Part shown: piece after piece, positions 1,756-37,004 of the stretch
How the letters are laid out: every line of letters begins with the position of its first letter
Position numbering within the stretch: the first letter of the stretch is position 1
NCBI RefSeq assembly: GCF_013304385.1
Contig: NZ_JAAITU010000028.1
Coordinates: forward strand, 1 to 52,874
Direction: 5' to 3'
DNA length: 52,874 bases
Source of the DNA: Blautia glucerasea
Lineage (GTDB): Bacteria; Bacillota; Clostridia; Lachnospirales; Lachnospiraceae
Made by a program: the position numbers and the translations under genes
The notes under the pieces: generated by a model
Told to the model about the DNA's origin: nothing
The model's database searches: none
The model's input: the letters and a program-made list of their open reading frames with translations, nothing else

Positions 1756-1774
1756 TCAAATTCCCTCTTAGCAC

Positions 1775-3310: not shown

Positions 3311-3317
3311 CCTTTTA

Positions 3318-8583: not shown

Positions 8584-8897
8584 CTGTATTTCCTCCACAA
8601 GTCTCTTCCAACTGTTTCTTCTATCAATTTTTAATTTCTTATTTCAGTCTTTTCCACAAAATCTGTTAAAATGTTAGCAAAGTGGTGTGGATTCTGCAAG
8701 CCCCCTGGGGGGATAAATTATTGCTCCGCTGACCCATAAAAACAATTTGCTGAACTTCACGAAGTATGGTATACTGAATAAAATATGCAACAAGTGCAGT
8801 TCCAACTGTCTGCATCAGAAAATACCCCATCTTCACGATTCCTTAACATTCGCTGTACCAGGGGTATCAAAGCTATATGAGATTGAGGTGAAACATT
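8584..8897. promoter_or_regulatory. Divergent intergenic region with regulator promoter and leader hairpin
   Basis: No gene is seen here. On the plus strand, TTGCTG (8747-8752) and TATACT (8770-8775) are 17 bases apart and make a good promoter for the DtxR-type gene. Its -10 sits in AGTATGGTATACT, a small palindrome that could be an autoregulatory site. The leader of about 110 bases carries ATACCCC (8822-8828) pairing with GGGGTAT (8861-8867), close to the ribosome site. A C-run/G-run hairpin lies near 8700-8712. The minus-strand promoter for the fusion gene is not obvious. Confidence 0.55.
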
Positions 8898-9269
8898 ATG
8901 AAATCCAATGAATCTGCAGAGAATTATCTGGAAACCATACTGATTCTCAGTAAGAAAAAACCTGTTGTGCGTTCTGTAGACATCGCAGAAGAACTGGGCT
9001 TTAAGAAGTCCAGCGTCAGCGTTGCCATGAAGAACCTCCGTGAGAAGAATCACATTACGGTGACTCCGGAAGGGTATATCTACCTTACTCCATCCGGTCA
9101 GCAGATTGCTGATATGATTTATGAGCGTCATCAGTTTCTTTCTGCATGGCTGATCCGCCTTGGAGTAGATCCTGATACAGCTACTTCAGACGCATGCCGG
9201 ATCGAGCATGTGATCAGTCAGGAAAGTTTTGAAGCGATCAAGAAGCATCTTGCTCCGGAAATGCAATAA
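8898..9269 (+). CDS. DtxR/MntR-family metal-dependent regulator
   Basis: A 123-residue DNA-binding protein. Residues 1-60 form a winged helix-turn-helix (ENYLETILIL, then RSVDIAEELGFKKSSVSVAMK), and the rest is the start of the metal-binding and dimer region (YERHQFLSAWLIRLGVDPDTA, then CRIEHVISQESFEAIKKHL). It has the short, two-domain form without an SH3-like domain, as MntR has. GAGGTGA precedes the ATG by seven bases. It should sense Mn2+ or Fe2+. A candidate target in this window is the palindrome at 38185-38200. Confidence 0.88.
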   Translation: MKSNESAENYLETILILSKKKPVVRSVDIAEELGFKKSSVSVAMKNLREKNHITVTPEGYIYLTPSGQQIADMIYERHQFLSAWLIRLGVDPDTATSDACRIEHVISQESFEAIKKHLAPEMQ

Positions 9270-9283
9270 TTTTCTCAAACAAA

Positions 9284-9329
9284 AGGGTGCCCATTGCCTG
9301 TGGTTATACAGGATGGACACCCTATTTTT
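9284..9329. terminator. Bidirectional terminator
   Basis: AGGGTG (9284-9289) pairs with CACCCT (9318-9323), with a further CCTGT/ACAGG pairing inside. A T-run follows on the plus strand (9325-9329) and an A-run precedes it, giving T's on the minus strand. It separates the convergent regulator and branching-enzyme genes. Confidence 0.8.
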
Positions 9330-9335
9330 ATTCTG

Positions 9336-11129
9336 TTATTCCTGATCTGCTTTTTTCTCGTAGAAAACAGCAGAAAACGGTGATAATTTTAATGCATTTT
9401 CCCCTGCTGGGAGAATCTTGTCTTTCTTAGTATATTTCCTGTTGCCGCCATAAACTTCCATATCACTTGCCATCAGAAGATCATATTCCTCTTCAAGCCG
9501 GATCTGATATTCCTGGGTCTGATCAGAGAAATTAAACAATGCCAGGATTGTTTCTTCTTCGCTTCTGCGCTCAAAAACATATACGCATTTCTCTTCCTGA
9601 TGACAGTCGATCCATTGGAACCCTTTATCTTCAAAGTCATGCCTGTACAGTGCCGGATGTTCCAAATAGCAATGATTCAGTTCCTTCATAAATCTGTGGA
9701 ACTTCTCATGGATAGGAAAGTCCAATAGCATCCAGTCCAGATCTCCTACCTCGCTCCATTCTTTTAGCTGAGCTAGTTCATTTCCCATAAAATTCAATTT
9801 CAGACCGGGATGTGCATACATATACATATAAAAGGCTCTTGCCTGTGGGAATTTCCCGTCATATCCTCCATTCATTTTCTGTGCGATGGTTGCTTTCCCA
9901 TGGACCACTTCATCATGAGACAGCGGAAGAAGATACTTTTCATTATAGAAATACATCATGGAAAATGTCAGCTTATGATACTGCTCCTTACGCTGCTCCG
10001 GAGAAGACTGAAAATAAGAAAGTGTATCATTCATCCATCCCAGATCCCATTTGTAATCAAAGCCAAGTCCGCCTTCAGAAACAGCCTTCGTTACTCCCTG
10101 GTAAGGTGTGGAATCCTCTGCAAACAGCATAACATCCGGTAACCGTTCCTTCAGCCCCTGATTCATGGTCTTCAAAAACTTCAGAGCTGATAAATTCTCC
10201 CCGCGATTACTATCTCCCTGCCAGTAGATCAGATTGCCAACAGCATCCATACGCAGTCCGTCAAAATGAAATTCCTGCAGCCAATAAAGAGCACAGGACT
10301 GTAAAAAGCTGCAAACCTCTCCTCTGGAATGCATAAAATTACAGCTTCCCCATTCATTGCGTCCTACTGCAATATTAGGATATTCATATAAAGCAGTTCC
10401 ATCATAATTAGCCAGTGCATAATCATTAACAGCAAAATGAACCGGCACAAAATCCAGGATCACACCGATCTCATTTTTGTGGCACTGGTCAATAAAATAC
10501 TTCAGATCTTCCGGCTTTCCGTAACGTGAAGTAGGACTGAAATACCCGGTTCCCTGATATCCCCAGGATTCATCACAGGGGTATTCACAAAGAGGCATTA
10601 CCTCTATATAATTATATCCGTTTTTCTTCAGATAAGGAATAATAAGGCCTGCCATCTCCCGATAGGTGTACCATCTTTCTCCTGAGCCTTCTTCCGGACA
10701 TTTCCAGGATCCAAAATGCATTTCATAAATATTGACTGGTTTATTCTTTCTGTCCTTGCCATTTTTCTGCCACTCTTTATCATGAAATCTGTAGTCTTTA
10801 GATGTCCAGGTAACAGAAGCTGTTCCTGGGCGTAATTCAGAATAAAATGCATAAGGATCTGCGTGATCTATAAAAGAACCATCATTTTTGTAAATCCGGT
10901 ATTTGTACATCTGCCCTGATGTCACTCCCGGAATATCGCATTCCCAGAAATTGCCATCATAAATACGGTTCATAGGTGTTTCTGTCCATCCATTAAACTC
11001 ACCAATAACACTTACACGATTAGCAGCCGGGGCAAATGTACGGAAGGTGACGCCCTTTTCCCACACATGTGCTCCAAGAAATTCATATGCCTGAAATTCT
11101 TTCCCGATATAAAAATTATAAAAATCCAT
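9336..11129 (-). CDS. glgB: 1,4-alpha-glucan branching enzyme
   Basis: Glycogen branching enzyme (GH13) of 597 residues. It forms alpha-1,6 branches by cutting and rejoining alpha-1,4 glucan chains. An N-terminal CBM48-like domain (FRTFAPAANRVSVIGEFNGW) precedes the catalytic barrel, where GLRMDAVGN holds the nucleophile Asp, FAEDSTPY the acid/base Glu, and LSHDEVVHGK a substrate-binding His-Asp. I chose the ATG at 11129 because GGAGG lies five bases before it; longer starts would run through the divergent promoter. No other glycogen genes are present nearby. It is divergent from the TetR-type gene. Confidence 0.93.
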   Translation of the reverse strand: MDFYNFYIGKEFQAYEFLGAHVWEKGVTFRTFAPAANRVSVIGEFNGWTETPMNRIYDGNFWECDIPGVTSGQMYKYRIYKNDGSFIDHADPYAFYSELRPGTASVTWTSKDYRFHDKEWQKNGKDRKNKPVNIYEMHFGSWKCPEEGSGERWYTYREMAGLIIPYLKKNGYNYIEVMPLCEYPCDESWGYQGTGYFSPTSRYGKPEDLKYFIDQCHKNEIGVILDFVPVHFAVNDYALANYDGTALYEYPNIAVGRNEWGSCNFMHSRGEVCSFLQSCALYWLQEFHFDGLRMDAVGNLIYWQGDSNRGENLSALKFLKTMNQGLKERLPDVMLFAEDSTPYQGVTKAVSEGGLGFDYKWDLGWMNDTLSYFQSSPEQRKEQYHKLTFSMMYFYNEKYLLPLSHDEVVHGKATIAQKMNGGYDGKFPQARAFYMYMYAHPGLKLNFMGNELAQLKEWSEVGDLDWMLLDFPIHEKFHRFMKELNHCYLEHPALYRHDFEDKGFQWIDCHQEEKCVYVFERRSEEETILALFNFSDQTQEYQIRLEEEYDLLMASDMEVYGGNRKYTKKDKILPAGENALKLSPFSAVFYEKKADQE

Positions 11130-11266: not shown

Positions 11267-11800
11267 ATGGATATACGTATTGAAAAAACAAAACAAAGCA
11301 TTATCAATGCTTTTATTGAAATCCGGTCACGCAAGGAAGTAGAACGGATCACAGTGAAAGAATTATGTGAAAAAGCCCGGATCAATAAATCCACTTTTTA
11401 CGCCCATTATAAGGATATCTATGATCTTTCTGATCAACTGGAAACAGAACTGGTGGATTCGATTATGGAGAATTTCAACCATCCTGAAAATCTGCTCCAA
11501 AATCCTGCTGATTTTACAAAAGAAATCTTTATGGGATATATGGCTAAAGATACCCTGATCCGTACCCTTTTTTCCGGAAGCCGCAGCAAGTTCCTTGTTC
11601 AGAAAATGGAATCTGCCTTGAAAGCCCTTGTTTTCTCTGTCTATCCTGATTATCGCAAGGATCCCCAGCTGAACATTATGTTGTCCTACCTTCTTTATGG
11701 GAGTTATTACGCTTTTTATGAAAACCGCAAGTACGGAGACGCCTCTGTGATCAATTCGATTTCCCAGTTCACTGCCAGACTTTTACCTGCATTTACATAA
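11267..11800 (+). CDS. TetR/AcrR-family regulator
   Basis: A 177-residue regulator. Residues 1-50 hold the TetR-type helix-turn-helix (KTKQSIINAFIEIRSRKEVE, then KELCEKARINKSTFYAHYKD). The C-terminal half resembles the TetR_C_7/DhaS-like ligand domain (FMGYMAKDTLIRTLFSGS; LSYLLYGSYYAFYENRKYGD). GGGAGG lies seven bases before the chosen ATG. The likely targets are itself and glgB across the shared 137-base divergent region (inference). Confidence 0.85.
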   Translation: MDIRIEKTKQSIINAFIEIRSRKEVERITVKELCEKARINKSTFYAHYKDIYDLSDQLETELVDSIMENFNHPENLLQNPADFTKEIFMGYMAKDTLIRTLFSGSRSKFLVQKMESALKALVFSVYPDYRKDPQLNIMLSYLLYGSYYAFYENRKYGDASVINSISQFTARLLPAFT

Positions 11801-11809
11801 ATAAAGTTA

Positions 11810-11850
11810 AAAAGAAGGAGCTGCCTATTCCCAGACAGTCCCTTCTTTTC
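11810..11850. terminator. Bidirectional terminator
   Basis: AAAAGAAGG (11810-11818) pairs with CCTTCTTTT (11841-11849). T-rich bases follow on both strands. It lies between the convergent TetR-type gene and the fumarase operon. Confidence 0.75.
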
Positions 11851-11879
11851 TAATTGCAGACACTTTCCTGCATCACAGA

Positions 11880-12440
11880 TTATTCGTGCTCCTTCAGATA
11901 CTGTGCACGGCCTTCTTCATAAAGGTTATTGCCTTCGCTGTCAATAATAACTACCAGCGGCATATCCTCTACGTAAAGCTTTCTGAGAGCCTCTGCGCCC
12001 AGGTCCTCATACGCGATCAGTTCTGCCTTCTTGATACATCTGGCAAGAAGTGCACCTGCACCGCCGATGGCTCCAAAATAAACACCGGAGTATTTCTTCA
12101 TTGCATCCACAACCTCCGGAAGACGGGCACCTTTTCCGATCATTCCTCTTGCTCCAACAGACATCATAGTGGGTGCATAAGCATCCATACGTCCGCTGGT
12201 GGTAGGGCCTGCAGAGCCGATCACTTTTCCTGGTTTTGCAGGAGTAGGTCCCACATAATAAATGGTGGCATCCGTCGGATCAAAGGGAAGCTTTTCTCCC
12301 TTTGCCAGTGCTTCGCACATTCTTTTGTGTCCTGCATCCCTGGATGTATAAATAGTTCCTGTAAGCAGTACCTGATCTCCGGCATGAAGTGTTTTGGCCA
12401 GTTCCTCAGTAAGAGGCAGTGTAATATGTCTTCTCTCCAT
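11880..12440 (-). CDS. Class I fumarate hydratase, beta (C-terminal) subunit
   Basis: Small subunit (186 residues) of the two-subunit, oxygen-sensitive [4Fe-4S] fumarase, which interconverts malate and fumarate. Seen: the swivelling-domain motifs LTGTIYTSRDAGHKRM near residue 27, GPTTSGRMDAYAP near 80 and GAIGGAGALLARCI near 130. GGAGGTGA precedes the ATG, which directly abuts the alpha-subunit stop. Tartrate dehydratase beta is the usual alternative; the neighbouring fumarate reductase and malate dehydrogenase favour fumarase. Last gene of the long operon. Confidence 0.9.
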   Translation of the reverse strand: MERRHITLPLTEELAKTLHAGDQVLLTGTIYTSRDAGHKRMCEALAKGEKLPFDPTDATIYYVGPTPAKPGKVIGSAGPTTSGRMDAYAPTMMSVGARGMIGKGARLPEVVDAMKKYSGVYFGAIGGAGALLARCIKKAELIAYEDLGAEALRKLYVEDMPLVVIIDSEGNNLYEEGRAQYLKEHE

Positions 12441-13283
12441 TTAGATCACCTCCGTTTTATGACGGGTCACATGGCAGTTGATATTTACTGCACAAGGCAT
12501 TCCGGCAATATGAGTTGGCATTGTCTCAATGTTCAGACCGATCGCTGTGGTTTTTCCACCAAAGCCCTGTGGTCCGATTCCCAGTTTATTCACCTTTTCC
12601 AGCATTTCTTTTTCAAGATCAGCATAGAATGGATCCGGGTTTTCAGTATCGATAGGGCGCATCAGTGCTTTTTTTGCAAGAAGAGCACATTTATCAAAGG
12701 TACCTCCGATACCTACACCAACCACCATTGGCGGACATGGGTTAGGACCTGCAGTCTCAACTGCTTCCAGGATGAAATCCTTGATTCCCTGAAGTCCGGC
12801 TGAAGGCTTGAACATACGGATCATGCTCATATTCTCACTTCCAAAGCCTTTCGGGCCTACCGTGATCTTAATGTTTTCACCAGGTACGATCTCTGTGTAA
12901 AGCATAGCCGGTGTATTGTCTCCTGTGTTTCCTCTGCGGACAGGATCCTTTACAACAGATTTTCTCAGATATCCATTAGTATAGCCTCTGCGCACACCTT
13001 CATCTACTGCCTCACGAAGATCTCCGCCTGTGATATGTACATCCTGACCTATTTCCAGGAACACACATGCCATTCCTGTATCCTGGCAGATCGGCACACA
13101 TTCACTGTCAGCAATCTCATAGTTCTGGATGATATCATCCAAAACACCTTTTGCAATCTCTCCGTCTTCACATGCACGGCAATTTTTGATGGCACACTTT
13201 ACATCTTCCGGAAGATGCTCATTTGCCTGTATGCAAAGTTTTTCCACTACGTCTGTGATCTGGCTTGCTAAAATCTCACGCAT
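12441..13283 (-). CDS. Class I fumarate hydratase, alpha (N-terminal) subunit
   Basis: Large subunit (280 residues) that binds the catalytic [4Fe-4S] cluster. Likely ligand cysteines are in PICQDTGMAC, GPNPCPPMVVG and GTFDKCALLAKKA. The chosen ATG (MREILAS) is ten bases after AGGAG; a GTG three codons earlier almost touches that site, so it is less likely. With the beta subunit it converts malate made by the dehydrogenase at 22413-23360 into fumarate for the reductase just upstream. Aconitase-type oxygen sensitivity fits a strict anaerobe. Confidence 0.92.
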   Translation of the reverse strand: MREILASQITDVVEKLCIQANEHLPEDVKCAIKNCRACEDGEIAKGVLDDIIQNYEIADSECVPICQDTGMACVFLEIGQDVHITGGDLREAVDEGVRRGYTNGYLRKSVVKDPVRRGNTGDNTPAMLYTEIVPGENIKITVGPKGFGSENMSMIRMFKPSAGLQGIKDFILEAVETAGPNPCPPMVVGVGIGGTFDKCALLAKKALMRPIDTENPDPFYADLEKEMLEKVNKLGIGPQGFGGKTTAIGLNIETMPTHIAGMPCAVNINCHVTRHKTEVI

Positions 13284-13357
13284 ACTACTCACTCTCCTGA
13301 TTTTTATTTATCATAACTGTTCAGTACTCACCAAAGATACTGCCTGCTGAATAGTTA

Positions 13358-14980
13358 CTATTTATCAAAACTGTCAACAGTTCCTTCATGTCTTGCATAC
13401 TTTGGAAGAAGCAGCGGAGAAACGTCCTCAGAATGAAGTCCTGCTTTTTCCAGTTCCTGGGCATAAGCCTGCACATGATCAAGATTCATCTTTCCAAGAG
13501 TGATCTCTTTTACCCTTGCAGCTGCAGCCTTTCCTGCGTCACGGCCAAATACGATCACATCCAGAAGAGAATTACCCATCAGACGGTTACGTCCGTGGAT
13601 TCCTCCAACTGCCTCTCCTGCAACAAGCAGGTTTGGGATCACCTTTGTAAATCCGTCTCCGCCGATCTCCAGACCGCCGTTCTGATAATGAAGAGTAGGA
13701 TATACAAGGATCGGAAGCTTTCTCATATCAATTCCGTAGTTCATGTACATACGAAGCATTGCAGGGATTCTCTTTTCAATGGTACCTGCACCGCTCATTT
13801 CCTCGATCATCGGAGTATCCAGCCATACACCGGTTCCGATTGGGGTTTTTACTCCCTTTCCTCTTTCTGTACACTCACGGATAATGGATGCAGCAGCTAC
13901 GTCACGGGTTTCCAGCGGATGCATAAATGCTTCACCGTCTGCGTTTACAAGCATAGCACCAATAGAACGTACCTTCTCAGTAACAAGTGCACCAAAGATC
14001 TGTGACGGATAAGCAACACCTGTAGGATGATACTGAATGGTATCCTGATACAAAAGCGGTGCTCCGGCACGGTATCCAAGTACAAGTCCGTCCGCAGTTG
14101 CTCCATAATGGTTGGATGTTGGGAAGCCCTGATAATGCATACGTCCTGCACCACCTGTAGCAATGATCACAGTCTTTGCACGGGCTACCATATAATCTCC
14201 TGTCTCCATATTCAGAAGAACTGCACCTGCAACCTGTCCCTTGTCATCTTTGATCAGCTCTACTGCTGAAGTAAATTCCACAACCGGGATCTGACGGTTG
14301 ATCACTTCATCGCGAAGGGTACGCATGATCTCTGCTCCTGAATAATCCTTGCATGCATGCATTCTCTTTCTGGAGGTTCCGCCGCCGTGGGTGGTCATCA
14401 TATTTCCTTCTGCATCTTTATCAAACATAACACCAAGATCATTCAGCCACTGAATGGCATCCGGTGCTTCCATAACCAGTTTTTTCAAAAGTTCCGGTCT
14501 TGCAGCAAAATGTCCGCCGCCGAAAGCATCCAGATAATGCTGTACCGGTGAATCATTTGCTTTGTCAGCTGCCTGGATACCGCCCTCTGCCATCATGGTA
14601 TTAGCATCACCGATACGCAGCTTTGTAACGATCATAACCTTTGCTCCGGCTTCGTGAGCTTCAATTGCTGCTGAAGATCCTGCACCGCCGCCGCCGATCA
14701 CAAGCACATCTACGTCATAATCTACTTTATCAAGATCTACTTTATCTGTCAGCAGACGACTGTTGGAATGGAGAAGATGTGTCAGCTCTTTTGGAGCTTT
14801 CTGGCCTTTATTCGGTCCGATCTTAATCTCAGCAAACGCCTCTTCCCTGTAATCCGGATGAAAAGCCTTCAAAAGAGTGTCCTTCTCTTCAGCTGTCATT
14901 CTTCTAGGTTCCATGCCAATTCGTGAAGGTCTTGTTGCCTCCACTTTTTTCACGGATTCCATCATTTCTGGTGTAAACAT
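13358..14980 (-). CDS. Fumarate reductase/succinate dehydrogenase-type flavoprotein (TfrA-like)
   Basis: A 540-residue flavoprotein expected to reduce fumarate to succinate. An unusual ~85-residue N-terminal extension precedes the FAD dinucleotide motif VIGGGGAGS (94-102). Active-site-type motifs are QYHPTG, TRDVAAASI, HYQNGGLEIGG and GEAVGGIHGRNRLMGNSLLD. The place of the covalent-FAD histidine (SHT/SHS before AAxGG in E. coli FrdA) reads DANTMMAEGG, so FAD is probably not covalently bound, as in soluble enzymes. No membrane anchor subunit lies nearby. L-aspartate oxidase (NadB) is the alternative, but the iron-sulfur partner 12 bases upstream and fumarase downstream argue for fumarate reductase. 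Confidence 0.85.
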   Translation of the reverse strand: MFTPEMMESVKKVEATRPSRIGMEPRRMTAEEKDTLLKAFHPDYREEAFAEIKIGPNKGQKAPKELTHLLHSNSRLLTDKVDLDKVDYDVDVLVIGGGGAGSSAAIEAHEAGAKVMIVTKLRIGDANTMMAEGGIQAADKANDSPVQHYLDAFGGGHFAARPELLKKLVMEAPDAIQWLNDLGVMFDKDAEGNMMTTHGGGTSRKRMHACKDYSGAEIMRTLRDEVINRQIPVVEFTSAVELIKDDKGQVAGAVLLNMETGDYMVARAKTVIIATGGAGRMHYQGFPTSNHYGATADGLVLGYRAGAPLLYQDTIQYHPTGVAYPSQIFGALVTEKVRSIGAMLVNADGEAFMHPLETRDVAAASIIRECTERGKGVKTPIGTGVWLDTPMIEEMSGAGTIEKRIPAMLRMYMNYGIDMRKLPILVYPTLHYQNGGLEIGGDGFTKVIPNLLVAGEAVGGIHGRNRLMGNSLLDVIVFGRDAGKAAAARVKEITLGKMNLDHVQAYAQELEKAGLHSEDVSPLLLPKYARHEGTVDSFDK

Positions 14981-14992
14981 GGCTCTTCCTCC

Positions 14993-15667
14993 TTATTTCT
15001 CAATCTCTCTGTGGTTGTAAAGTTCTTCCATTTCTGTAATAGGCTTCTGCATGATCTGTTCGATCAGTTCATCATATGCCCCTTCATGGATCTCTTCTAC
15101 ACGTTTCGCCAGATGCTCACTCTTTGGTGCAATATATTTTCCGGTAAGACGTCTTGCCAGAAGACCAACCATTGGATGGGAAATCTCTGCAGGACAACGC
15201 ACAGTACAGCAGCCGCATGCGATACAGTCAAAGGACTCTTCTGCACATTTCTCAAATTCTCCGCGCTGTGCATAAGCGATATACTGCATAACATTCAGGT
15301 TCTGTGTGCAGGCTTTTGTGCAGGCATTACATCCGATACAGCTGTAGATTTCCGGATAAAGTTCCATCATAATACGCTGTTCCGGACGGATCTCATCAAT
15401 CTCATAGGTTCTCTTGTCTGTTGGGAAGAATGGGATGCTTGCCACATACATACCTTCCTGTACCTGTGTCTGACAGGCCAGGCAGGTCTTCAGTTCATTT
15501 TTTCCTTTGATCCTGTACATGGTTGCACAGGCGCCGCAGAAGCCATGACGGCAGCCGCAGCCTCTTTTTAAGGTATAACCTGCATATTCCATAGCGGTCA
15601 TGATCGTAAGATCAGCAGGTACTGTGTATTTTTTTCCAAAGAAATATACATTTACCATATTTTCCAT
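14993..15667 (-). CDS. Fumarate reductase-type iron-sulfur subunit, without CCG domain
   Basis: Electron-transfer partner of the flavoprotein, 224 residues. The N-terminal [2Fe-2S] domain has CGCRHGFCGAC and a distal CLAC; two further sets, CIGCNACTKAC and CIACGCCTVRCP, fit a pair of polynuclear clusters. It resembles the N-terminal part of methanogen TfrB, but ends at residue 224 with no C-terminal CCG repeats. In TfrB that domain receives electrons from thiols. Here the only CCG protein is HdrB in the same operon, so electrons probably arrive from Hdr or Flx proteins (inference). Confidence 0.85.
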   Translation of the reverse strand: MENMVNVYFFGKKYTVPADLTIMTAMEYAGYTLKRGCGCRHGFCGACATMYRIKGKNELKTCLACQTQVQEGMYVASIPFFPTDKRTYEIDEIRPEQRIMMELYPEIYSCIGCNACTKACTQNLNVMQYIAYAQRGEFEKCAEESFDCIACGCCTVRCPAEISHPMVGLLARRLTGKYIAPKSEHLAKRVEEIHEGAYDELIEQIMQKPITEMEELYNHREIEK

Positions 15668-15709
15668 GTTGTTTGATCCTTTCTTATAGTAGGTAATCGC
15701 AGTGCTTCT

Positions 15710-16564
15710 TTAGTACTCATCAGGTAACTGATCGATCTCATCCAGCCGGAACACCGGTCCGTCCTTGCACACATATTTGGAACCAATATTGCAGCGTCCG
15801 CACTTACCGATTCCGCATTTCATACGAAGTTCCAGTGTGGTATAAACCTGTGATCTTGAAAAGCCTAGTTCTTCCAATCCCTGAAGAACAAACTTGATCA
15901 TGATCGGCGGTCCGCACACCAATGCAACTTTATTTGTATCAAATCCGATTTCTTTCAGATAGCTAGGAACAAAGCCTACATGTCCGTCCCAGCCCTCCTG
16001 CTCACGGTCAATGGTAAGATATACATTTACATCTTTTGCTTTCATCCATACATTCTGGATCTCTTTCAGCTTAACCAGGTCATCTGCGGATCGGGAACCG
16101 TACAGAATATCCACAGTTCCATAATCCTCACGATTGTCCAGCACATAATTGATCACAGAACGAAGAGGCGCCAGACCAATACCTCCGGCGATAAACAGAA
16201 GATTCTTTCCTTTCAGCTTATCCTCTACCGGGAAATGATTTCCATAAGGCCCACGCACTGTGATCTCATCTCCAACCTGCAGACTGTGCAGATAAGATGT
16301 CAGTTCTCCGCATCTTTTAATACTGAATTCCTGATATTCTTTATTGGTAGGGGAAGATGTGATGGAAAACATTCCTTCGCTGACTCCAGGTGCACAAAGC
16401 ATTGCACACTGTCCGGGCATATGTTCAAAAAGCTTTCCTCCATCCGGTGCATTCACACAAAAGGTTTTCACATCCGGAGTTTCCTCGTTAATACTGGTGA
16501 TAACTCCTACCTTTGGAATCAGAGTATCCAGTTTGTAGTTTTTATGGCAGGTACATTCACTCAT
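15710..16564 (-). CDS. flxA: FAD/NAD(P)H-binding electron-input subunit (FlxA-like)
   Basis: A 284-residue ferredoxin-reductase-type protein of the group that includes FlxA and anaerobic sulfite reductase subunit B. The N-terminal FAD barrel has MFSITSSP and GPYGNHFP; the NAD(P) domain has FIAGGIGLAPLRS and LVCGPPIM; the C-terminus binds [2Fe-2S] with CGIGKCGRC and a later VCKDGPVF cysteine. It should accept electrons from NADH and pass them to the iron-sulfur subunits. It overlaps the next upstream gene by four bases. Dihydroorotate dehydrogenase PyrK is a relative, but the operon argues for FlxA. Confidence 0.88.
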   Translation of the reverse strand: MSECTCHKNYKLDTLIPKVGVITSINEETPDVKTFCVNAPDGGKLFEHMPGQCAMLCAPGVSEGMFSITSSPTNKEYQEFSIKRCGELTSYLHSLQVGDEITVRGPYGNHFPVEDKLKGKNLLFIAGGIGLAPLRSVINYVLDNREDYGTVDILYGSRSADDLVKLKEIQNVWMKAKDVNVYLTIDREQEGWDGHVGFVPSYLKEIGFDTNKVALVCGPPIMIKFVLQGLEELGFSRSQVYTTLELRMKCGIGKCGRCNIGSKYVCKDGPVFRLDEIDQLPDEY

Positions 16565-17604
16565 GCTTTTTCTCCTCCCTGCTTTTCAAAGGCTTTGATC
16601 ACCTTTACAATATTTAATGCTTCCGGACATTTCTCCACACAACGTCCACATCCTACACAGGAATACATGCCATCGTTGTTTGCCGGGAAATAAACCAGCT
16701 TATGCATAAATCTCTGGCGGAATCTCTGCAGCTGTGTTGTACGGTTATTACCACCTGCCATCAGCGTAAAATCAGAATACATGCAGGAATCCCAGCAGCG
16801 ATAACGCTTTACGCCATGGCCTGTATCATAGTCTTTAATGTCATAGCACTGGCAGGTAGGACATACAAAGGTGCAGGTACCACATGCCAGACATGGTTTA
16901 TACAGTTCATTCCATACAGGAGAATTGAATTTTTCTTCTGTAGCATTTCCATCCCAACCCTCCAGGGAAAGGTGTGTATAGGGAAGTTTTTCAATAATGG
17001 TACGGATTGCTTCTTTTTCCTTAGAAACTGCCTCCTCATCTGCTGCATCAGCATCCTGAAGAAGCTCCTTCACGCTTTCTGTAAGAGCATTTCCTTTTTC
17101 TGTAACAGCTTTCCAGAAAAGCTCTTCACCAATCATCCAGACAGCTACATCTGCCACCGGATCTGCTGCATCTGTACCGAAAACCTTGCAGAAACAGGAC
17201 TCTTCCGGCTCATGGCAGGCCATGGCAACAATAGTCCCATGCTCACGCCTTGCTGCATAAAAAGTGTCTACCGGATCAGACAGAAATACTTTATCCAGAA
17301 CCTCCACACCTTTTACATCACAGGCTTTCATTCCAAATACTACAAACGGATGCTCTCTTAATGCTTCCGGCTCTACAGACAGCTTCTTGCCATCACGTAC
17401 ACATGTATATAAAGTTTCGCTTTGTGGGAAAAAAGCATCTTTTCCTGATTTTACAGTTTTCAGGGTTGTAAGATCCACATCTGCATCTTCAGTCCACAGT
17501 GCAAAATTTGTTTGCTCTGCTTTTTTTACAGGAAGGATCAGATCCTGTTTTTCAGAAATCATCTGGAATAATGCCTTCAGATTTTCTTTTTTTATCTTAT
17601 ACAT
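16561..17604 (-). CDS. 4Fe-4S dicluster protein (FlxB/FlxC; sulfite reductase subunit A-like)
   Basis: A 347-residue protein of the hydrogenase-beta/anaerobic sulfite reductase A group. The N-terminal 200 residues form a domain found with FlxA-type partners; the C-terminal third carries CLACGTCTFVCPTCQC and CVGCGRCVEKCPEALN, two [4Fe-4S] sites. It should carry electrons from the FAD subunit towards HdrA. It starts three bases after the preceding gene and overlaps flxA by four. I cannot tell from sequence alone which of the two dicluster genes matches FlxB and which FlxC. Confidence 0.85.
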   Translation of the reverse strand: MYKIKKENLKALFQMISEKQDLILPVKKAEQTNFALWTEDADVDLTTLKTVKSGKDAFFPQSETLYTCVRDGKKLSVEPEALREHPFVVFGMKACDVKGVEVLDKVFLSDPVDTFYAARREHGTIVAMACHEPEESCFCKVFGTDAADPVADVAVWMIGEELFWKAVTEKGNALTESVKELLQDADAADEEAVSKEKEAIRTIIEKLPYTHLSLEGWDGNATEEKFNSPVWNELYKPCLACGTCTFVCPTCQCYDIKDYDTGHGVKRYRCWDSCMYSDFTLMAGGNNRTTQLQRFRQRFMHKLVYFPANNDGMYSCVGCGRCVEKCPEALNIVKVIKAFEKQGGEKA

Positions 17605-17607
17605 ACA

Positions 17608-18582
17608 TTATCCCCTTTCTGCCACAATGCCAGGCTCCACATCCTCAAATGTAAAGCTGGTAAGCGGACCTTTTGATTCAGCATCTGCACCTGCCTGATA
17701 TTCTCCATAGAACTGATCGATGTCTTTGATGAATTTACGGTTGAAAAGATGAAGAGGAATTCCCTGTGGGCAGACACGGCTGCACTCTCCACAGTCTGTG
17801 CATCTTCCTGCTACATGGAATGCACGGATGATGTGGAACATCTTTTCTTCAAAATCATCCACATTTGCTTTCTGGGCACTGTCAAATTTGGTACTGTCAA
17901 ATACGCATCTGCGGCAGCTGCATGCAGGACAAGCATTGCGGCAGGCATTGCAGCGGATACATTTACTCAGTTCTTTCTGGAAGAATTCAAATCTTTCCTT
18001 TGGAGACATTGCTTCGATCCGTTCCACTTCTGCAAAGCGGTCAGCATCTTTTGTATCCTTGGACTCACCGATGATCTCATCATAGATCATATGCTCTTTG
18101 CCCTTACATACATGGCATCTTTCCAGCATTGCATCTTTATAGGAAACAGTTTTGCTGCCATAAATTGTTTCAATTTCAAGGTTCTCGCAATCATCAGTAA
18201 GCTTTGCTCCGGTGATTTTCTGGATTCCCTTGATTCCCATTTTGCGAAGCTTTTCCACATCCAGCTTACCTTTACAGCCTACACCGATAATATAGGCTTT
18301 TTCACGGTCTACCCTGTGCTCTTTAATCAGCTGATTAAAGCTGTATGTGTCACACGGCTTCAGACAGACAAGGGTTTTTCCTTCCAGCTTGGAAGCTTCG
18401 ATCATCATCTTGCTTAAATTTGCTCCGCAAAAGCCATCGTAAACGAATTCATCCAGGCTTTCCGGTGTTTCAAAATATGCTGCTTCAGGATTGTAAGGCA
18501 GGTCTCCGGCTCTCCAGCCAAGAACACGGGCTACCGTATTATCTGCCAGCAGCTCTTTTGCACGGCTAATCAGTTCCTGCAT
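17608..18582 (-). CDS. 4Fe-4S dicluster protein (FlxB/FlxC; F420-hydrogenase/FdhB-like)
   Basis: A 324-residue iron-sulfur protein. The N-terminal region resembles the FrhB/FdhB family, with CLKPCDTYSF and IIGVGCKGKL; the middle has RCHVCKG; the C-terminal region has CIRCNACRNACPACSCRRC and CTDCGECSRVCPQGIP. It is a member of the Flx electron-input module together with the genes on both sides. GGAGG lies a few bases before the ATG, and the gene overlaps flxD by 13 bases. Confidence 0.83.
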   Translation of the reverse strand: MQELISRAKELLADNTVARVLGWRAGDLPYNPEAAYFETPESLDEFVYDGFCGANLSKMMIEASKLEGKTLVCLKPCDTYSFNQLIKEHRVDREKAYIIGVGCKGKLDVEKLRKMGIKGIQKITGAKLTDDCENLEIETIYGSKTVSYKDAMLERCHVCKGKEHMIYDEIIGESKDTKDADRFAEVERIEAMSPKERFEFFQKELSKCIRCNACRNACPACSCRRCVFDSTKFDSAQKANVDDFEEKMFHIIRAFHVAGRCTDCGECSRVCPQGIPLHLFNRKFIKDIDQFYGEYQAGADAESKGPLTSFTFEDVEPGIVAERG

Positions 18583-19013
18583 CTTATATCCTCCAATCTT
18601 ACATTCTTGCCAAGAGAATGGATCTTCTCCACAAACTCATTCATGGTCTGGGAGAACTTAACACCTTCTGCTGCAGATACCCATTCCACACGGGTACGTC
18701 CATTTTCCACACCAATAAAATCAAGCATGGAGAACAAAAGTGTCATTCTTCTTCTTGCATAATAGTTTCCGGTTGTATAATGGCAGTCTCCCGGATGACA
18801 TCCACAAAGGATCACTCCGTCTGCCCCTTTTTCAAAAGCACGGAGGATAAACATAGGATTCACACGGCAGGAACATGGAACACGGATGATCTTTACATCT
18901 GCCGGATAAACCAGACGGCTGCTTCCTGCCAGGTCTGCACCTGCATAACTGCACCAGTTGCAGCAGAACGCTACGATTTTAGGCCTGAATTCTTCTTTTG
19001 CTTCTATCGACAT
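18570..19013 (-). CDS. flxD: MvhD/FlxD-type [2Fe-2S] adaptor
   Basis: A 147-residue protein of the MvhD family, which passes electrons into HdrA. Conserved cysteines are in AFCCNWCSYAGADLAG, VPCSCRVNP and ILCGCHPGDCHY. I start it at the ATG of MSIEAKEEF, after a GGAGGTAGA site; a longer frame would reach back into hdrA. It overlaps hdrA by ten bases and the next gene by 13, so it is part of one tightly packed operon. Presence of MvhD-type protein with FlxA and two dicluster proteins is what marks the FlxABCD set. Confidence 0.9.
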   Translation of the reverse strand: MSIEAKEEFRPKIVAFCCNWCSYAGADLAGSSRLVYPADVKIIRVPCSCRVNPMFILRAFEKGADGVILCGCHPGDCHYTTGNYYARRRMTLLFSMLDFIGVENGRTRVEWVSAAEGVKFSQTMNEFVEKIHSLGKNVRLEDIRCRN

Positions 19014-20992
19014 ATTGCATCTACCTCCGCTATGATCTGTCTGTTGGAGAATCCCTGAAGATCCATCGCTCCGGATGGACAGGTAACTGTACATGCACCA
19101 CAGCCCTGACAAAGTGCATTGTTCACAACTGCCACACGCCTCGTCTCACGTACTCCATGGTCATTCACCTGTACATCCTCATAGGAAATAGCTCCATATG
19201 GGCATACATTCATACACTGGGAACATCCGTTACATGCAAGAGGATCTGCCTTTGCTGTACATGGGTTTGTAGTCAGCTTGTCTTTTGCCAGTAATCCGAT
19301 TGCTTTTACTGCTGCTGCTCCAGCCTGTGCAACGGTTTCCGGAATATCCTTTGGTCCCTGGCACACTCCGGACAGGAAGATACCTGCGGTTGGTGATTCT
19401 ACAGGACGAAGCTTTGCATGGGCTTCAGTAAGGAAATTGTTGGTATCAATACTTGCAGTAAGCATGGTTGCGATTTTACGTACATCTTTATTTGGCTCAA
19501 TGGCAGCTGCAAGCACAACCATATCTGCCTCCATCAGGATCTGTTTATTGTCCAGAAGGTCTGATGCCTGTACCATTAAAGTTCCGTCCGGCTGAGGAAT
19601 GACCTTGCCAACCTGGCCTTTAATATAATTTACTCCATACTCTTCTACAGCTCTTCTGTAGAACTCATCAAAGTTCTTTCCAGGAGTACGTACATCAATA
19701 TAAAATACGGTCACATTCGTATCCGGGTATTTATCTCTGATCAGCATTGCATGCTTTGCTGTATACATACAGCAGATCTTGGAGCAGTAGCTTTTTCCTC
19801 TGTTATCAGAGCAGCGGCTTCCCACACACTGTACAAACACAATATTCTTCGGTGCTTTTCCATCGGAAAGGCGCTCCAGATGACCCTTTGTAGGTCCTGC
19901 TGCATTCATCAAACGCTCCAGCTCCAGGGAAGTGATCACATCCTTGCTCTGGCTGTAAGCATATTCATCATATTGATCAAGCTTGATCACATCAAAGCCG
20001 GTTGCCACAACAATGGCTCCGTATTTCTTTGTTACGATCTCGTCCTGCTGTTCATAATCAATGGCTCCTGCTGCACAGTTCTTGGCGCAGGCACCGCATT
20101 TGCCGGTTTTGAACTTAATACAGTTCTCACGATCGATCACAGGTACATTTGGAATGGCCTGTGCAAAAGGAATATAAATGGCACTACGGTTGTTCAGTCC
20201 ACGGTTAAATTCGTTAGGAATCTTCTTGGATGGACATTTCTGGGAACATACACCACAGCCTGTACATTTGCTCATGTCTACGCTTCTGGCTTTTTTACGG
20301 ATATCTACTGTAAAATCTCCTACAAAGCCGCTTACCTTCTCAACTTCGCTGTATGTATAGATATTGATCTTCTCATGAGCTGCAGCTTCTACCATCTTAG
20401 GGGTAAGGATACATGCGGAGCAGTCCAGGGTTGGGAATGTCTTGTCCAGCTGGGACATTCTTCCACCAATACTTGGAAGCTTTTCCACAATATCCACTTC
20501 ATATCCTGCATCTGCAATATCAAGTGCAGACTGGATACCGGCAATACCACCGCCGATCACCAGGGCTCTTTTTGTAACCTGACTCTCTCCTGGCTGAAGA
20601 GGCGCATCCAGATTAACCTTTGCAATGGCTGCTCTTGCAAGAATCACAGCTTTCTTGGTTGCTTCCTCCATATCTTTGTGGATCCAGGAGCAGTGCTCAC
20701 GGATATTTGCGATCTCTACCATGTATGGATTCAGACCTGCCTTTTCCGCTGCTTTGCGGAAAGTAGCCTCATGCATACGTGGGGAACAGGAACATACTAC
20801 AACTCCTGTCAGATGTTTCTCTTTAATTGCATTAATGATCTTGGACTGTCCTGCTTCAGAGCACATATACTGATAATCCTCTGCATGGACTACTCCTGGC
20901 TCCATTTTTGCCATTTCAACTACTTTTTTTACATCTACTGTGGCTGCGATATTGGTACCACAGTGACATACAAATACACCTATTCTCTGCAC
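19004..20992 (-). CDS. hdrA: Heterodisulfide reductase-type subunit A (bifurcating flavoprotein)
   Basis: The 662-residue core of an Hdr complex; its FAD is the known site of flavin-based electron bifurcation in this family. Seen: N-terminal VFVCHCGTNI, MCSEAGQ and CSCSPRMHEATF; the FAD motif VIGGGIAGIQSALDIADAGY; internal clusters CTGCGVCSQKCPSKK and CGACAKNCAAGAID; and C-terminal CNGCSQCMNVCPYGAI and CQGCGACTVTCPSGAM, the likely ferredoxin-reducing pair. I place the start at GTG (VQRIGVF) behind AGGAGG, not at the earlier ATG, which would overlap hdrC. Length is that of standard HdrA with C-terminal ferredoxin domain. Confidence 0.93.
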   Translation of the reverse strand: MQRIGVFVCHCGTNIAATVDVKKVVEMAKMEPGVVHAEDYQYMCSEAGQSKIINAIKEKHLTGVVVCSCSPRMHEATFRKAAEKAGLNPYMVEIANIREHCSWIHKDMEEATKKAVILARAAIAKVNLDAPLQPGESQVTKRALVIGGGIAGIQSALDIADAGYEVDIVEKLPSIGGRMSQLDKTFPTLDCSACILTPKMVEAAAHEKINIYTYSEVEKVSGFVGDFTVDIRKKARSVDMSKCTGCGVCSQKCPSKKIPNEFNRGLNNRSAIYIPFAQAIPNVPVIDRENCIKFKTGKCGACAKNCAAGAIDYEQQDEIVTKKYGAIVVATGFDVIKLDQYDEYAYSQSKDVITSLELERLMNAAGPTKGHLERLSDGKAPKNIVFVQCVGSRCSDNRGKSYCSKICCMYTAKHAMLIRDKYPDTNVTVFYIDVRTPGKNFDEFYRRAVEEYGVNYIKGQVGKVIPQPDGTLMVQASDLLDNKQILMEADMVVLAAAIEPNKDVRKIATMLTASIDTNNFLTEAHAKLRPVESPTAGIFLSGVCQGPKDIPETVAQAGAAAVKAIGLLAKDKLTTNPCTAKADPLACNGCSQCMNVCPYGAISYEDVQVNDHGVRETRRVAVVNNALCQGCGACTVTCPSGAMDLQGFSNRQIIAEVDAICR

Positions 20993-20999
20993 CAGTCTC

Positions 21000-21404
21000 T
21001 CACCTCCTGTATCTTCTGAATGCACTGACTAACAGCTGCTGAGGCGTTTCATCATCAAGAAGCTCCGGGATCTCATCTGCTTTCAGATAATTCTGTCCCT
21101 TCTCCCTGATCACGATCTGTCTTGCAGCATCGATCAGTTTTCCTGGTTTTACATCTCTTGGGCAACGCTCCACACATGCAAAGCAGGAAAGACATTTCCA
21201 CAGGGATTTTGACTGGGCAAGTGCCTCGATATCCCCATTCTGTACATAAGATACAAACTGATGTGGTTTGATATCCATCTCATTAAATGCCGGACAGGTT
21301 GCAGAGCATTTACCGCATTTCATACATTTCAGAGGATTTACTCCTGAGATCTCTTTGATCCGTTCTGCAGCATTTGCAGTATTTCCATATGTATAAGCAC
21401 TCAT
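21000..21404 (-). CDS. hdrC: Heterodisulfide reductase-type subunit C
   Basis: A 134-residue protein with two [4Fe-4S] motifs, CMKCGKCSATCPA and CLSCFACVERCPRD, that links HdrA with HdrB. Its ATG overlaps the hdrB stop (TAATG). Order hdrB-hdrC-hdrA in the direction of transcription. Confidence 0.92.
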   Translation of the reverse strand: MSAYTYGNTANAAERIKEISGVNPLKCMKCGKCSATCPAFNEMDIKPHQFVSYVQNGDIEALAQSKSLWKCLSCFACVERCPRDVKPGKLIDAARQIVIREKGQNYLKADEIPELLDDETPQQLLVSAFRRYRR

Positions 21405-22198
21405 TACTCTGCCACCTCCTCTTTCACGCCCAGTGCTTCCGCAAGAAGCTCTGTGAAATAGTATACAGGAAGTTTTCCGTTTCCGTTCTTTTTCAGGTTA
21501 TACATGCAAAGCGGACAGGCTGTGATCAGCATCTCTGCCCCAAAACCTTCTGCACTGTCCATGATCTTTTTGCACATATTCTGTGCCATGTCCTTTTCTT
21601 TCAGGGAAATATATCCACCGCAGCATTCATTACGGAAAGGATAGATCACCGGCTCACCACCGATAGCACGGATAAAATCTTCTATAATGGAAGGATTTTC
21701 CGGATTATCAAATCCCAGTATTTTCCCGGGTCTTAACAAAAGGCACCCATAATAAGCACCTATTTTTCTGCCCTTTAACGGATTTACAACCTTTTCTTTG
21801 ATCTTATCAAAGCCTACCCTGTCTCTTAATACTTCCAGGTAATGGAGAACGGTTGTTTCTCCTGCATAGGGTGTTTCAAATTTCAGGTAATTGTTGGCTC
21901 TGGTGCGGATATCCTCCACATTTTGCATGTCGTCATTGACTCTTTTGATCACATGATGACAGGCGGAACAGACTGTTACCAGATCCTGGCCTTTTTCCCT
22001 GGCCTGCTCCAATGCACGGACAGAAGAAAGCTTTGTGGCAATTTCATCGCTTCCCAGCGGATAAACACCGCCGCAGCACTGCCAGTCTTCGATTTCTTCC
22101 AGTTCAAATCCAAGCGCCTTGGCAGAAGCCCTGGCATAGGTATCCAGGTCTTTTGCTTTGTTTTTCAGGGTACATCCCGGATAATAACTGTACTTCAT
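21404..22198 (-). CDS. hdrB: Heterodisulfide reductase-type subunit B with two CCG domains
   Basis: A 264-residue protein; in methanogens HdrB carries two noncubane [4Fe-4S] clusters that reduce a disulfide. Both CCG repeats look complete: GCTLKNK, QCCGGVYP, CSACH; and GCLLLRP, ECCGGYIS, CPLC. So it should still bind both clusters. The organism has no methanogen heterodisulfide, so its partner is unknown; given the operon it may hand electrons to the fumarate reductase iron-sulfur subunit, or reduce an unknown thiol pair (inference). First gene of the Hdr-Flx-Frd-Fum block, 214 bases after the malate dehydrogenase gene. Confidence 0.92.
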   Translation of the reverse strand: MKYSYYPGCTLKNKAKDLDTYARASAKALGFELEEIEDWQCCGGVYPLGSDEIATKLSSVRALEQAREKGQDLVTVCSACHHVIKRVNDDMQNVEDIRTRANNYLKFETPYAGETTVLHYLEVLRDRVGFDKIKEKVVNPLKGRKIGAYYGCLLLRPGKILGFDNPENPSIIEDFIRAIGGEPVIYPFRNECCGGYISLKEKDMAQNMCKKIMDSAEGFGAEMLITACPLCMYNLKKNGNGKLPVYYFTELLAEALGVKEEVAE

Positions 22199-22377
22199 AA
22201 TCCTGCTATCCTTTCTTTGTTTCTTAGCATTTTCTATCGTTTTTTCAGCAAATCTATTTATATATACAGCAACCTTTTTATCTTGTTTTCCGGCTGCTGG
22301 TATATTCAGAAATTAATAGGAATCAACACGTTATTTTGTATTTTAAAATCAAATCAAGACTATTTTGGACATAATAG

Positions 22378-22397
22378 GGGAGCCGCAAGCGGCTCCC
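22378..22397 (-). terminator. Hairpin after the malate dehydrogenase gene
   Basis: GGGAGCCGC (22378-22386) and GCGGCTCCC (22389-22397) form a nine-pair stem with two unpaired bases between. Only a weak T content follows on the minus strand, so it may be partly leaky and let transcription run into hdrB. Confidence 0.6.
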
Positions 22398-22412
22398 AAT
22401 ATATACGTAATT

Positions 22413-23360
22413 TTACAGATTGATCTGTGCAATAACATTTTTCAGGGCGTCAGCACTCTTTCTCAACTGTTCAATTTCATTCTTATTCATACGCATTGGT
22501 ACTTTTCCCTGGATACCATTAGGTCCTACCAAGGTAAGTGTGCTTAAGCATACGTCTTCAATACCATACTCTCCATGCATCATGGAAGAAACAGTGGTAA
22601 TAGTATCAGATGCTGCAAGTACCAGATTGACCAGCTTGCATACGGTTACAGATACAGCATAGAAAGTAGCCCCTTTCTTTGCAATGATCTGACCGCCGGA
22701 CTTCTGGACATAATTCAACATTGCCTCTTTATCAATTGGCTGGATCTCTTTTCCAAGTGCTTTCATATTCTCATAATATTCATCCACACTTACTCCTGAG
22801 ATATAAGCGCCTGTCCACGGAATAAAGGAAGTATCCCCATGCTCACCGAATACATATGCATGGATATTTGCCTGTGCTACCTTGAAATGCTCAGAAATAC
22901 CGCAACGAAGACGTGCTGTATCCAGCAGTGTACCGGAACCGATCACCTGTTTCTCCGGAATACCGGAGATCTTGGTAAATACATAAGTCATAATATCTAC
23001 CGGATTGCTTACGATAATGTAAATAGCATTTGGAGCTTCCTTTGCGATCTTTGGAGCAATGTCTTTCATAATATTTACATTCGTCTGTGTAAGCTCGATC
23101 CTGGTCTGTCCCGGCTTTCTGGCAATCCCGGATGTAATAATTACAATGTCAGAGTCCCTAGCATCTTCATATTCTCCTGCGATCATGGAAATCGGACTTC
23201 TAAAACAGGTACCCTGAAGGATATCCATCACTTCACCTTCTACCTTTTCCTTGTTAATATCAATCATAACGATTTCAGACGCAATCGCCTCACTTGCCAA
23301 AGTATAAGCGATGGTAGAACCTACGCTACCTGCACCAATAATAGTAATTTTGCTACTCAT
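22413..23360 (-). CDS. mdh: Malate dehydrogenase of the LDH-like type
   Basis: NAD-dependent 2-hydroxyacid dehydrogenase, 315 residues. The Rossmann motif GAGSVGSTIAYT (9-20), the conserved Arg in TRIEL (R87), the substrate Arg in LDTARLR (R150) and the catalytic GEHGD His (H174) are present. The residue that sets specificity is Arg (R81 in SGIARKPGQTR); lactate dehydrogenases have Gln there, malate dehydrogenases Arg. So it should reduce oxaloacetate to malate, which suits the fumarase and fumarate reductase downstream. General tools may name it lactate dehydrogenase. The start is the ATG after GGAAGG; a longer frame has no such site. Confidence 0.85.
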   Translation of the reverse strand: MSSKITIIGAGSVGSTIAYTLASEAIASEIVMIDINKEKVEGEVMDILQGTCFRSPISMIAGEYEDARDSDIVIITSGIARKPGQTRIELTQTNVNIMKDIAPKIAKEAPNAIYIIVSNPVDIMTYVFTKISGIPEKQVIGSGTLLDTARLRCGISEHFKVAQANIHAYVFGEHGDTSFIPWTGAYISGVSVDEYYENMKALGKEIQPIDKEAMLNYVQKSGGQIIAKKGATFYAVSVTVCKLVNLVLAASDTITTVSSMMHGEYGIEDVCLSTLTLVGPNGIQGKVPMRMNKNEIEQLRKSADALKNVIAQINL

Positions 23361-36790: not shown

Positions 36791-37004
36791 GTTACTCCTC
36801 TCCCAAAGGGCAGCGCCTATGCTCCGCAATCACAGATGCTTTCCAAAGTCTTTTCGCTGCGGCAGGATACTCCCTCCCCACCTTATTTTCCTCTATTATA
36901 TCGAATCATTCCGCAAATGTCAACAGAATCAACACATTATATCTGTTGTATTTTGTGGATTTATGTTGTTTTTGGTGTTTTTTTCATGTGAATTACATAA
37001 AAAA

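Follow-up and report, generated by a model that had tools for sequence, protein, structure and literature searches.

A twelve-gene block of Blautia glucerasea probably encodes a conserved bifurcating NADH:ferredoxin:fumarate oxidoreductase, in the form of a soluble HdrABC-FlxABCD-FrdAB complex. The block lies on the minus strand of contig NZ_JAAITU010000028.1, at positions 11880-23360, in the order mdh-hdrB-hdrC-hdrA-flxD-flxC-flxB-flxA-frdB-frdA-fumA-fumB. By the window we mean the whole stretch of DNA analyzed, 52,874 nucleotides, which is an entire contig (C96) of a 3.99 Mb genome that is 99.97% complete. An earlier note, made from the letters of the window, had described such a co-directional block with a class I fumarase at its end, and all of its genes are found on the minus strand where it had placed them. 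The note had also proposed that electrons from NADH are split between ferredoxin and fumarate. That proposal is favored by the conserved gene order, the co-occurrence of the parts across genomes, the exchange of one fumarase for another, the conserved residues, and the RnfC and phosphoenolpyruvate (PEP) carboxykinase genes elsewhere in the genome. It is tempered by the frequent finding of the FrdBA pair without Hdr-Flx outside the class Clostridia, and the idea is already in print.

Proposed mechanism

How would such a complex work? Ferredoxin is a small high-energy electron carrier, and the overall reaction would be 2 NADH + fumarate + oxidized ferredoxin -> 2 NAD+ + succinate + reduced ferredoxin. 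Hydride would enter at FlxA and pass through FlxB, FlxC and FlxD to the flavin of HdrA, where electron pairs would be split. One electron of each pair would travel through the C-terminal clusters of HdrA to ferredoxin, and the other through HdrC and the non-cubane clusters of HdrB to FrdB and the flavin of FrdA, where fumarate would become succinate. PEP carboxykinase would make oxaloacetate, which malate dehydrogenase and fumarase would convert into the fumarate supply, while Rnf and hydrogenases would re-oxidize the ferredoxin, so that succinate formation would add chemiosmotic energy. Formation of the complex, the electron path, the bifurcation, the specificity for NADH and the fate of the ferredoxin are what we infer here.

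Using the potentials given in the literature passages available (fumarate +33 mV, NAD -320 mV, ferredoxin -420 mV), our own arithmetic gives about -49 kJ/mol for 2 NADH, fumarate and 2 one-electron ferredoxins, which makes the coupling to ferredoxin feasible.

Conservation within the class

A scan of named genomes with FrdA found at least 570 stretches encoding it, of which the best 80 matches were kept, a non-random sample whose titles point mainly to Lachnospiraceae, Oscillospiraceae and other Clostridia, many of them gut-derived. Among these 80, all 57 loci with at least 7.3 kb of upstream DNA have hdrBCA-flxDCBA-frdBA in that order, which is more than chance would give, and of the 65 loci with sufficient downstream DNA, 56 also have fumAB. 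The arrangement is not unique to this strain. A relative of mdh (>50% identity) stands upstream in 38/54 loci. At position 11617-12774 of one locus (L004), and at similar loci, a transporter of the AspT/YidE type (PF06826) is inserted between frdA and fumA. This transporter, found in many relatives, is a candidate succinate exporter; a PF06826 search of the window's own genome found no match.

The same picture holds farther away. Loci from a search of the class (L084-L112) have flxA-frdB-frdA together in 29/29 cases, and among ten more distant class loci (L120-L129) the whole Hdr-Flx set is found in nine, the remaining one (L124) meeting a contig end. At six of these ten distant loci the class I fumarase is replaced by a class II enzyme unrelated to it. 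This exchange within the same block ties FrdA to fumarate.

Do FrdA and HdrA also come and go together? In 393 evenly sampled class genomes (E-value cut-offs FrdA <= 1e-90, HdrA 1e-120, FlxB 1e-60), FrdA is found in 54 genomes, HdrA in 54 and FlxB in 55. These cut-offs are strict and of our choosing, and few candidates were scored per genome, so more distant HdrA proteins may exist in the others. FrdA and HdrA occur together in 53 genomes (Fisher p = 1.5e-63, a value that ignores the relatedness of the genomes), with G281 having FrdA only and G019 HdrA only. In 49 of the 53 the two genes lie on one contig, 1.3-4.3 kb apart, and in the other four they are on different contigs. The FlxB cut-off misses one genome with FrdA (G231, FlxB 34% identical) and adds two others (G031 and G057). 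Of the 20 genomes listed for the family to which the window belongs, 3 have the cassette, a patchiness consistent with transfer or loss.

The single class genome with HdrA and without this FrdA has, at L221 (G019:C5:22000-41000), an hdrA and an MvhD-like gene at 8259-10655 on the plus strand. By eye, the neighbors are an iron-sulfur (Fe-S) protein frame and glycolate-oxidase-like frames, a candidate for another Hdr acceptor.

The Hdr and Flx subunits

The earlier note's claim that the cluster and flavin motifs are intact is borne out by the alignments, in which the active-site residues too are essentially invariant. HdrA aligns over its full length to the solved methanogen HdrA (5odc_A, E 1.4e-207), with both a flavin adenine dinucleotide (FAD) domain and ferredoxin-type clusters. 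Its Lys424, aligned to residue 409 of 5odc, is kept in 71/71 sequences, and its cysteines are mostly invariant (C78, C405, C555 and C589 not quite). The ten motif cysteines of HdrB, in two CCG motifs, are kept in 66/66 sequences, and the eight of HdrC in 66/66 or 67/67. By domains the Flx module is complete, with an FAD/NAD(P) subunit in FlxA, dicluster proteins in FlxB and FlxC, and an MvhD-like FlxD.

The FrdA and FrdB subunits

FrdA has the FAD_binding_2 fold, and its dicarboxylate active-site residues are kept in 119/119 copies. By structure comparison urocanate reductase is equally near in fold. The histidine that would hold the flavin covalently is replaced by Asn127 in all copies (119/119 and 37/37, that is 156/156), and a non-covalent flavin would bias the enzyme toward fumarate reduction. 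The domain search found no match to PF02910, the C-terminal helical domain. For both of these reasons, we do not file FrdA as a complex II subunit (SdhA/FrdA).

Is FrdA then some other known flavoprotein? Its best score is to TfrA, the flavoprotein of methanogen thiol:fumarate reductase, with 334.5 bits against a cut-off of 718, and FrdB reaches 38.7 bits against the TfrB cut-off of 385. FrdB has no CCG match, that is, no fused CCG domain, and we do not assign the pair to TfrAB. L-aspartate-oxidase-type NadB is rejected as well, because the scores are under the cut-offs (260.1 of 639; 255.3 of 452.75) and the genome has a separate nadB (534.1 bits, cut-off 472) on C97, flanked by nadA and nadC. 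The names given to relatives are of little help: among 120 listed, 14 are named, 12 of them "FAD-dependent oxidoreductase", one "FAD-binding protein" and one "succinate dehydrogenase / fumarate reductase flavoprotein subunit". With names as generic as these, the function is easily overlooked.

The correspondence with TfrB is informative in another way. Along the TfrB profile (488 positions), FrdB matches positions 19-87, HdrC 121-220 and HdrB 416-487; FlxC, and weakly FlxB, also match the middle, which makes that part less telling. Parts of one methanogen chain are thus spread over FrdB, HdrC and HdrB, which supports a contact between FrdB and HdrB. A fold search with a weak model of FrdB found nothing at E <= 0.001; the top match, at 1.4e-3 and to be taken as a hint, was chain C of a Methanothermobacter Hdr complex, presumably HdrC.

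Residues 1-88 of FrdA (window 14980-14717, minus strand) form an N-terminal extension that is predicted to be ordered, is invariant at several positions (V13, E14, R17, P42 and D43 in 33 sequences), and is not covered by the listed structure matches, whose range is 72-524. It is a candidate docking element.

The same genome also has a second fumarate reductase at L118 (C149:1-7306), positions 964-4280 of the minus strand, with an SdhB-like Fe-S protein and an FrdA that does have PF02910. By eye, the flavin-linked histidine position of that FrdA is Gln. The locus also has a weak Sdh_cyt-like membrane protein, under its cut-off, and a DUF6921 protein.

Alternatives, and FrdBA outside the class

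What complicates a simple bifurcating reading? The sequence of FlxA does not discriminate between NADH and NADPH. In the related MetFV-HdrABC-MvhD enzyme of Moorella, bifurcation could not be demonstrated, according to PMC8578096. And in a sample of the phylum, where FrdA (queried with the L120 protein) is found in 39 of 398 genomes, 14 of the 20 loci retrieved have no Hdr or Flx gene found near FrdBA.

The alternative that fares best is an NADH:fumarate reductase in which the Hdr module merely relays electrons and ferredoxin is not reduced, which the Moorella result would favor. Hydrogenobacter thermophilus, whose fumarate reductase is a subject of published work, is also reported to have a soluble multi-subunit NADH-dependent enzyme of this kind. 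We think this alternative unlikely. HdrA is full length and near the solved methanogen protein, with its clusters and the aligned lysine kept, and a plain relay would not need HdrA, even though in the class sample 53 of the 54 genomes with FrdA have HdrA too, and 53 of the 54 with HdrA have FrdA.

Less probable still is a thiol route, in which HdrABC-FlxABCD would reduce a small disulfide/thiol carrier from which FrdBA would draw its electrons, as the methanogen thiol:fumarate reductase does. The completely kept cluster ligands of HdrB and the TfrA score, the best that FrdA has, would suit it. Against it, that score is well under the family cut-off, FrdB is without the CCG match, and no thiol carrier is among the twelve genes of the block, the part of the genome searched for one. 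Finally, Hdr-Flx and FrdBA could be two independent enzymes that share a transcript because both serve succinate fermentation, FrdBA drawing its electrons from, for example, ferredoxin or flavodoxin. This would agree with the 14 loci just mentioned and is improbable given the near one-to-one co-occurrence in the class, the several gene orders that are all contiguous, and the correlation of FrdBA with Hdr-Flx distances (0.89-0.94 over 68 loci, which without control for species shows joint inheritance only).

We return to the proposed bifurcating enzyme, and to where FrdBA is found without its other parts. The rule that Hdr-Flx always accompanies FrdBA is true of the class sample and false at the level of the phylum. 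Hdr-Flx is complete at four of the 20 phylum loci (L171-L173 and L183). L180 has HdrC, HdrB, a 648-amino-acid HdrA, a 1076-amino-acid HdrA-like frame, flxD, a weak flxC and frdBA, with a two-subunit pair of the 2-oxoacid:ferredoxin-oxidoreductase type nearby. L182 reads fumAB-hdrCB-frdBA, with the CCG domains confirmed and no hdrA or flx found at the locus, another case of HdrCB adjoining FrdBA. In the absence of Hdr-Flx, FrdBA stands, for instance, beside a succinyl-CoA-ligase pair and fumAB (L174), beside fumAB together with genes for malic enzyme and a multihaem cytochrome (L178), or beside pyruvate carboxylase (L185, and L186 by eye). Partners from the succinate pathway at loci without Hdr-Flx indicate that FrdBA is modular and can take other donors.

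Taking all of this together, we lean toward a broader statement, held less firmly than the reading of the block itself. Bifurcating fumarate reductase would be common in gut Clostridia, where HdrABC-FlxABCD would serve almost only fumarate, the non-covalent flavin of FrdA would favor reduction, and every succinate would charge ferredoxin for Rnf; elsewhere FrdBA would be a swappable cassette, used with cytochromes, with HdrCB alone, or in 2-oxoacid:ferredoxin oxidoreductase clusters.

Layout of the block

Table 1. Genes of the block, with window coordinates and the basis of each assignment.
Gene	Product	Coordinates	Strand	Basis
mdh	Lactate-dehydrogenase-like, putative malate dehydrogenase	22413..23360	-	NCBIfam scores; Arg at specificity position
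hdrB	Two CCG domains, ligands for two non-cubane [4Fe-4S] clusters	21404..22198	-	Domain matches, motif cysteines
hdrC	2x[4Fe-4S] subunit	21000..21404	-	Domain/family matches, eight cysteines
hdrA	Candidate bifurcating flavoprotein, FAD domain and Fe-S clusters	19004..20992	-	Alignment to 5odc
flxD	MvhD/FlpD family	18570..19013	-	PF02662, 183.2 bits
flxC	Dicluster Fe-S protein	17608..18582	-	Domain/family matches, alignment
flxB	Dicluster Fe-S protein (sulfhydrogenase beta / AsrA like)	16561..17604	-	Domain/family matches, alignment
flxA	FAD/NAD(P)-binding subunit, DHODB-type [2Fe-2S] site; putative electron entry	15710..16564	-	Domain/family matches, alignment
frdB	[2Fe-2S] domain and two [4Fe-4S] motifs	14993..15667	-	Domain/family matches, alignment
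frdA	Fumarate reductase flavoprotein, 88-amino-acid N-terminal extension	13358..14980	-	Domain/family/structure matches
fumA	Class I fumarase alpha	12441..13292 (start or 13283)	-	NF004885, 417.8 bits, cut-off 276
fumB	Class I fumarase beta	11880..12440	-	NF005310, 290.8 bits, cut-off 238

The close packing from hdrB to frdA that the earlier note had claimed is there, with overlaps of up to 13 bases and otherwise gaps of at most 42. By subtraction, the overlaps are 1 (hdrB/hdrC), 10 (hdrA/flxD), 13 (flxD/flxC) and 4 bases (flxB/flxA), and the gaps are 7 (hdrC-hdrA), 3 (flxC-flxB), 42 (flxA-frdB), 12 (frdB-frdA), 65 (frdA-fumA) and 0 (fumA-fumB). HdrA starts with GTG at 20992, and the upstream AGGAGGTG site overlaps the end of hdrC. 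The ATG of flxD, at 19013, is what makes the ten-base overlap with the end of hdrA. A cysteine just before the end of HdrA is conserved in 71/71 sequences, and its TGT codon overlaps this ATG (window 19011-19016), which explains its conservation better than function does.

The spacer between mdh and hdrB is 214 bases long and contains an eight-pair GC-rich hairpin (22397-22378, minus strand), a possible terminator or attenuator, so mdh may be transcribed separately. A single transcript that includes mdh is unproven; scans for promoters and terminators gave about as many hits as shuffled sequence did (26 vs 24.0 and 10 vs 9.0), which is chance level.

The putative malate dehydrogenase and the rest of the pathway

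The earlier note had called the first gene a malate dehydrogenase, and here the evidence is divided. The best NCBIfam model is L-lactate dehydrogenase (PRK00066, 339.3 bits, cut-off 339; TIGR01771, 330.6 bits, cut-off 303.55). However, the specificity position is Arg (RKPGQTR) in 44/44 copies, at the presumed position 102, where Arg is the malate-type residue. We do not accept lactate dehydrogenase on the family score alone, and the Arg suggests specificity for malate.

Elsewhere in the genome we find an ATP-type PEP carboxykinase, RnfC above its cut-off (the Rnf subunit searched for), and two [FeFe]-hydrogenase matches, one inside the window. The latter, at 38244-39758 on the minus strand, is a protein of 504 amino acids of the [FeFe]-hydrogenase type (PF02906) and has several ferredoxin motifs. 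The window also encodes, at 34265-36829 on the minus strand, an 854-amino-acid glycyl-radical enzyme that is pyruvate-formate-lyase-like (PF02901 842.5 bits, PF01228).

Comparison with known systems

A bifurcating fumarate reductase has been proposed in print (PMC7282089, PMC6315080 and PMC11636981), so the inference of the earlier note is sound and not new. The literature passages at hand report biochemical demonstration for no member of the kind, and among titles and abstract openings of the open-licence literature we found no paper on a purified enzyme. The present analysis adds that the block is widespread in gut Clostridia, that its Hdr-Flx and FrdBA parts occur together almost one to one, that the fumarase can be exchanged, that Asn127 is invariant, that the proteins correspond in part to TfrB, and that FrdBA is modular outside the class. 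There is weak evidence that these additions are unpublished, in that the related passages available do not contain them.

If the proposal is true, succinate, a major cross-fed acid of the gut, is made with energy conservation and without a membrane quinone chain, models of gut and rumen fermentation would have altered balances of ATP and redox, and fumarate joins the acceptors of flavin-based bifurcation. The operons are in cultured isolates, Ohessyouella blattaphilus (L061) and Mordavella massiliensis (L031) among them, which makes all of this directly testable.

Methanogen TfrAB resembles the terminal reductase, with FrdA scoring best against TfrA, and FrdB and HdrB each matching one end of the TfrB profile. 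Methanogen TfrB is one fused chain that uses coenzyme M and coenzyme B thiols, whereas in the window the corresponding pieces are individual proteins linked with HdrA and Flx. HdrABC-FlxABCD, for which related papers cite Ramos 2015, is matched in the domain set of all seven subunits (the Desulfovibrio proteins were compared by domains alone). In Desulfovibrio the module passes its electrons to a disulfide protein and not to fumarate. The MetFV-HdrABC-MvhD enzyme of Moorella thermoacetica likewise joins an Hdr module to a different terminal reductase; its acceptor is methylene-tetrahydrofolate, and the passages available name no FlxABC.

Tubeworm symbionts cluster Hdr-Flx with an enzyme of the thiol:fumarate-reductase type. 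There, flxABCD-hdrABC lies with tfrAB and korABCD, direct transfer from Hdr-Flx to TfrAB was suggested, and the expression of tfrAB departed from the pattern of the rest of the cluster (PMC6315080, PMC11636981). That cluster belongs to a reductive tricarboxylic acid cycle with 2-oxoglutarate:ferredoxin oxidoreductase, and L180 resembles it, while the window more likely serves succinate fermentation.

A close parallel is the "succinate operon" of Pseudoclostridium thermosuccinogenes (CDQ83_RS03315-RS03365), compared here by its description in PMC7282089: a fumarase, Flx-Hdr, two Frd genes and a possible succinate transporter at the end. Its expression was about four-fold higher at low CO2, a change that was not significant for every subunit, and ferredoxin-coupled fumarate reduction was assumed for it, after a 2019 preprint. 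Going by that description, the window differs in that mdh stands upstream and a class I fumarase of two genes follows downstream, and for the transporter many relatives have the AspT-like gene after frdA, the window's genome being without a match. What the two share is a fumarase, contiguous Hdr-Flx and FrdBA, and the order of the P. thermosuccinogenes operon as described, fumarase, Flx-Hdr, Frd, is the very order found at L123 and L125-L129.

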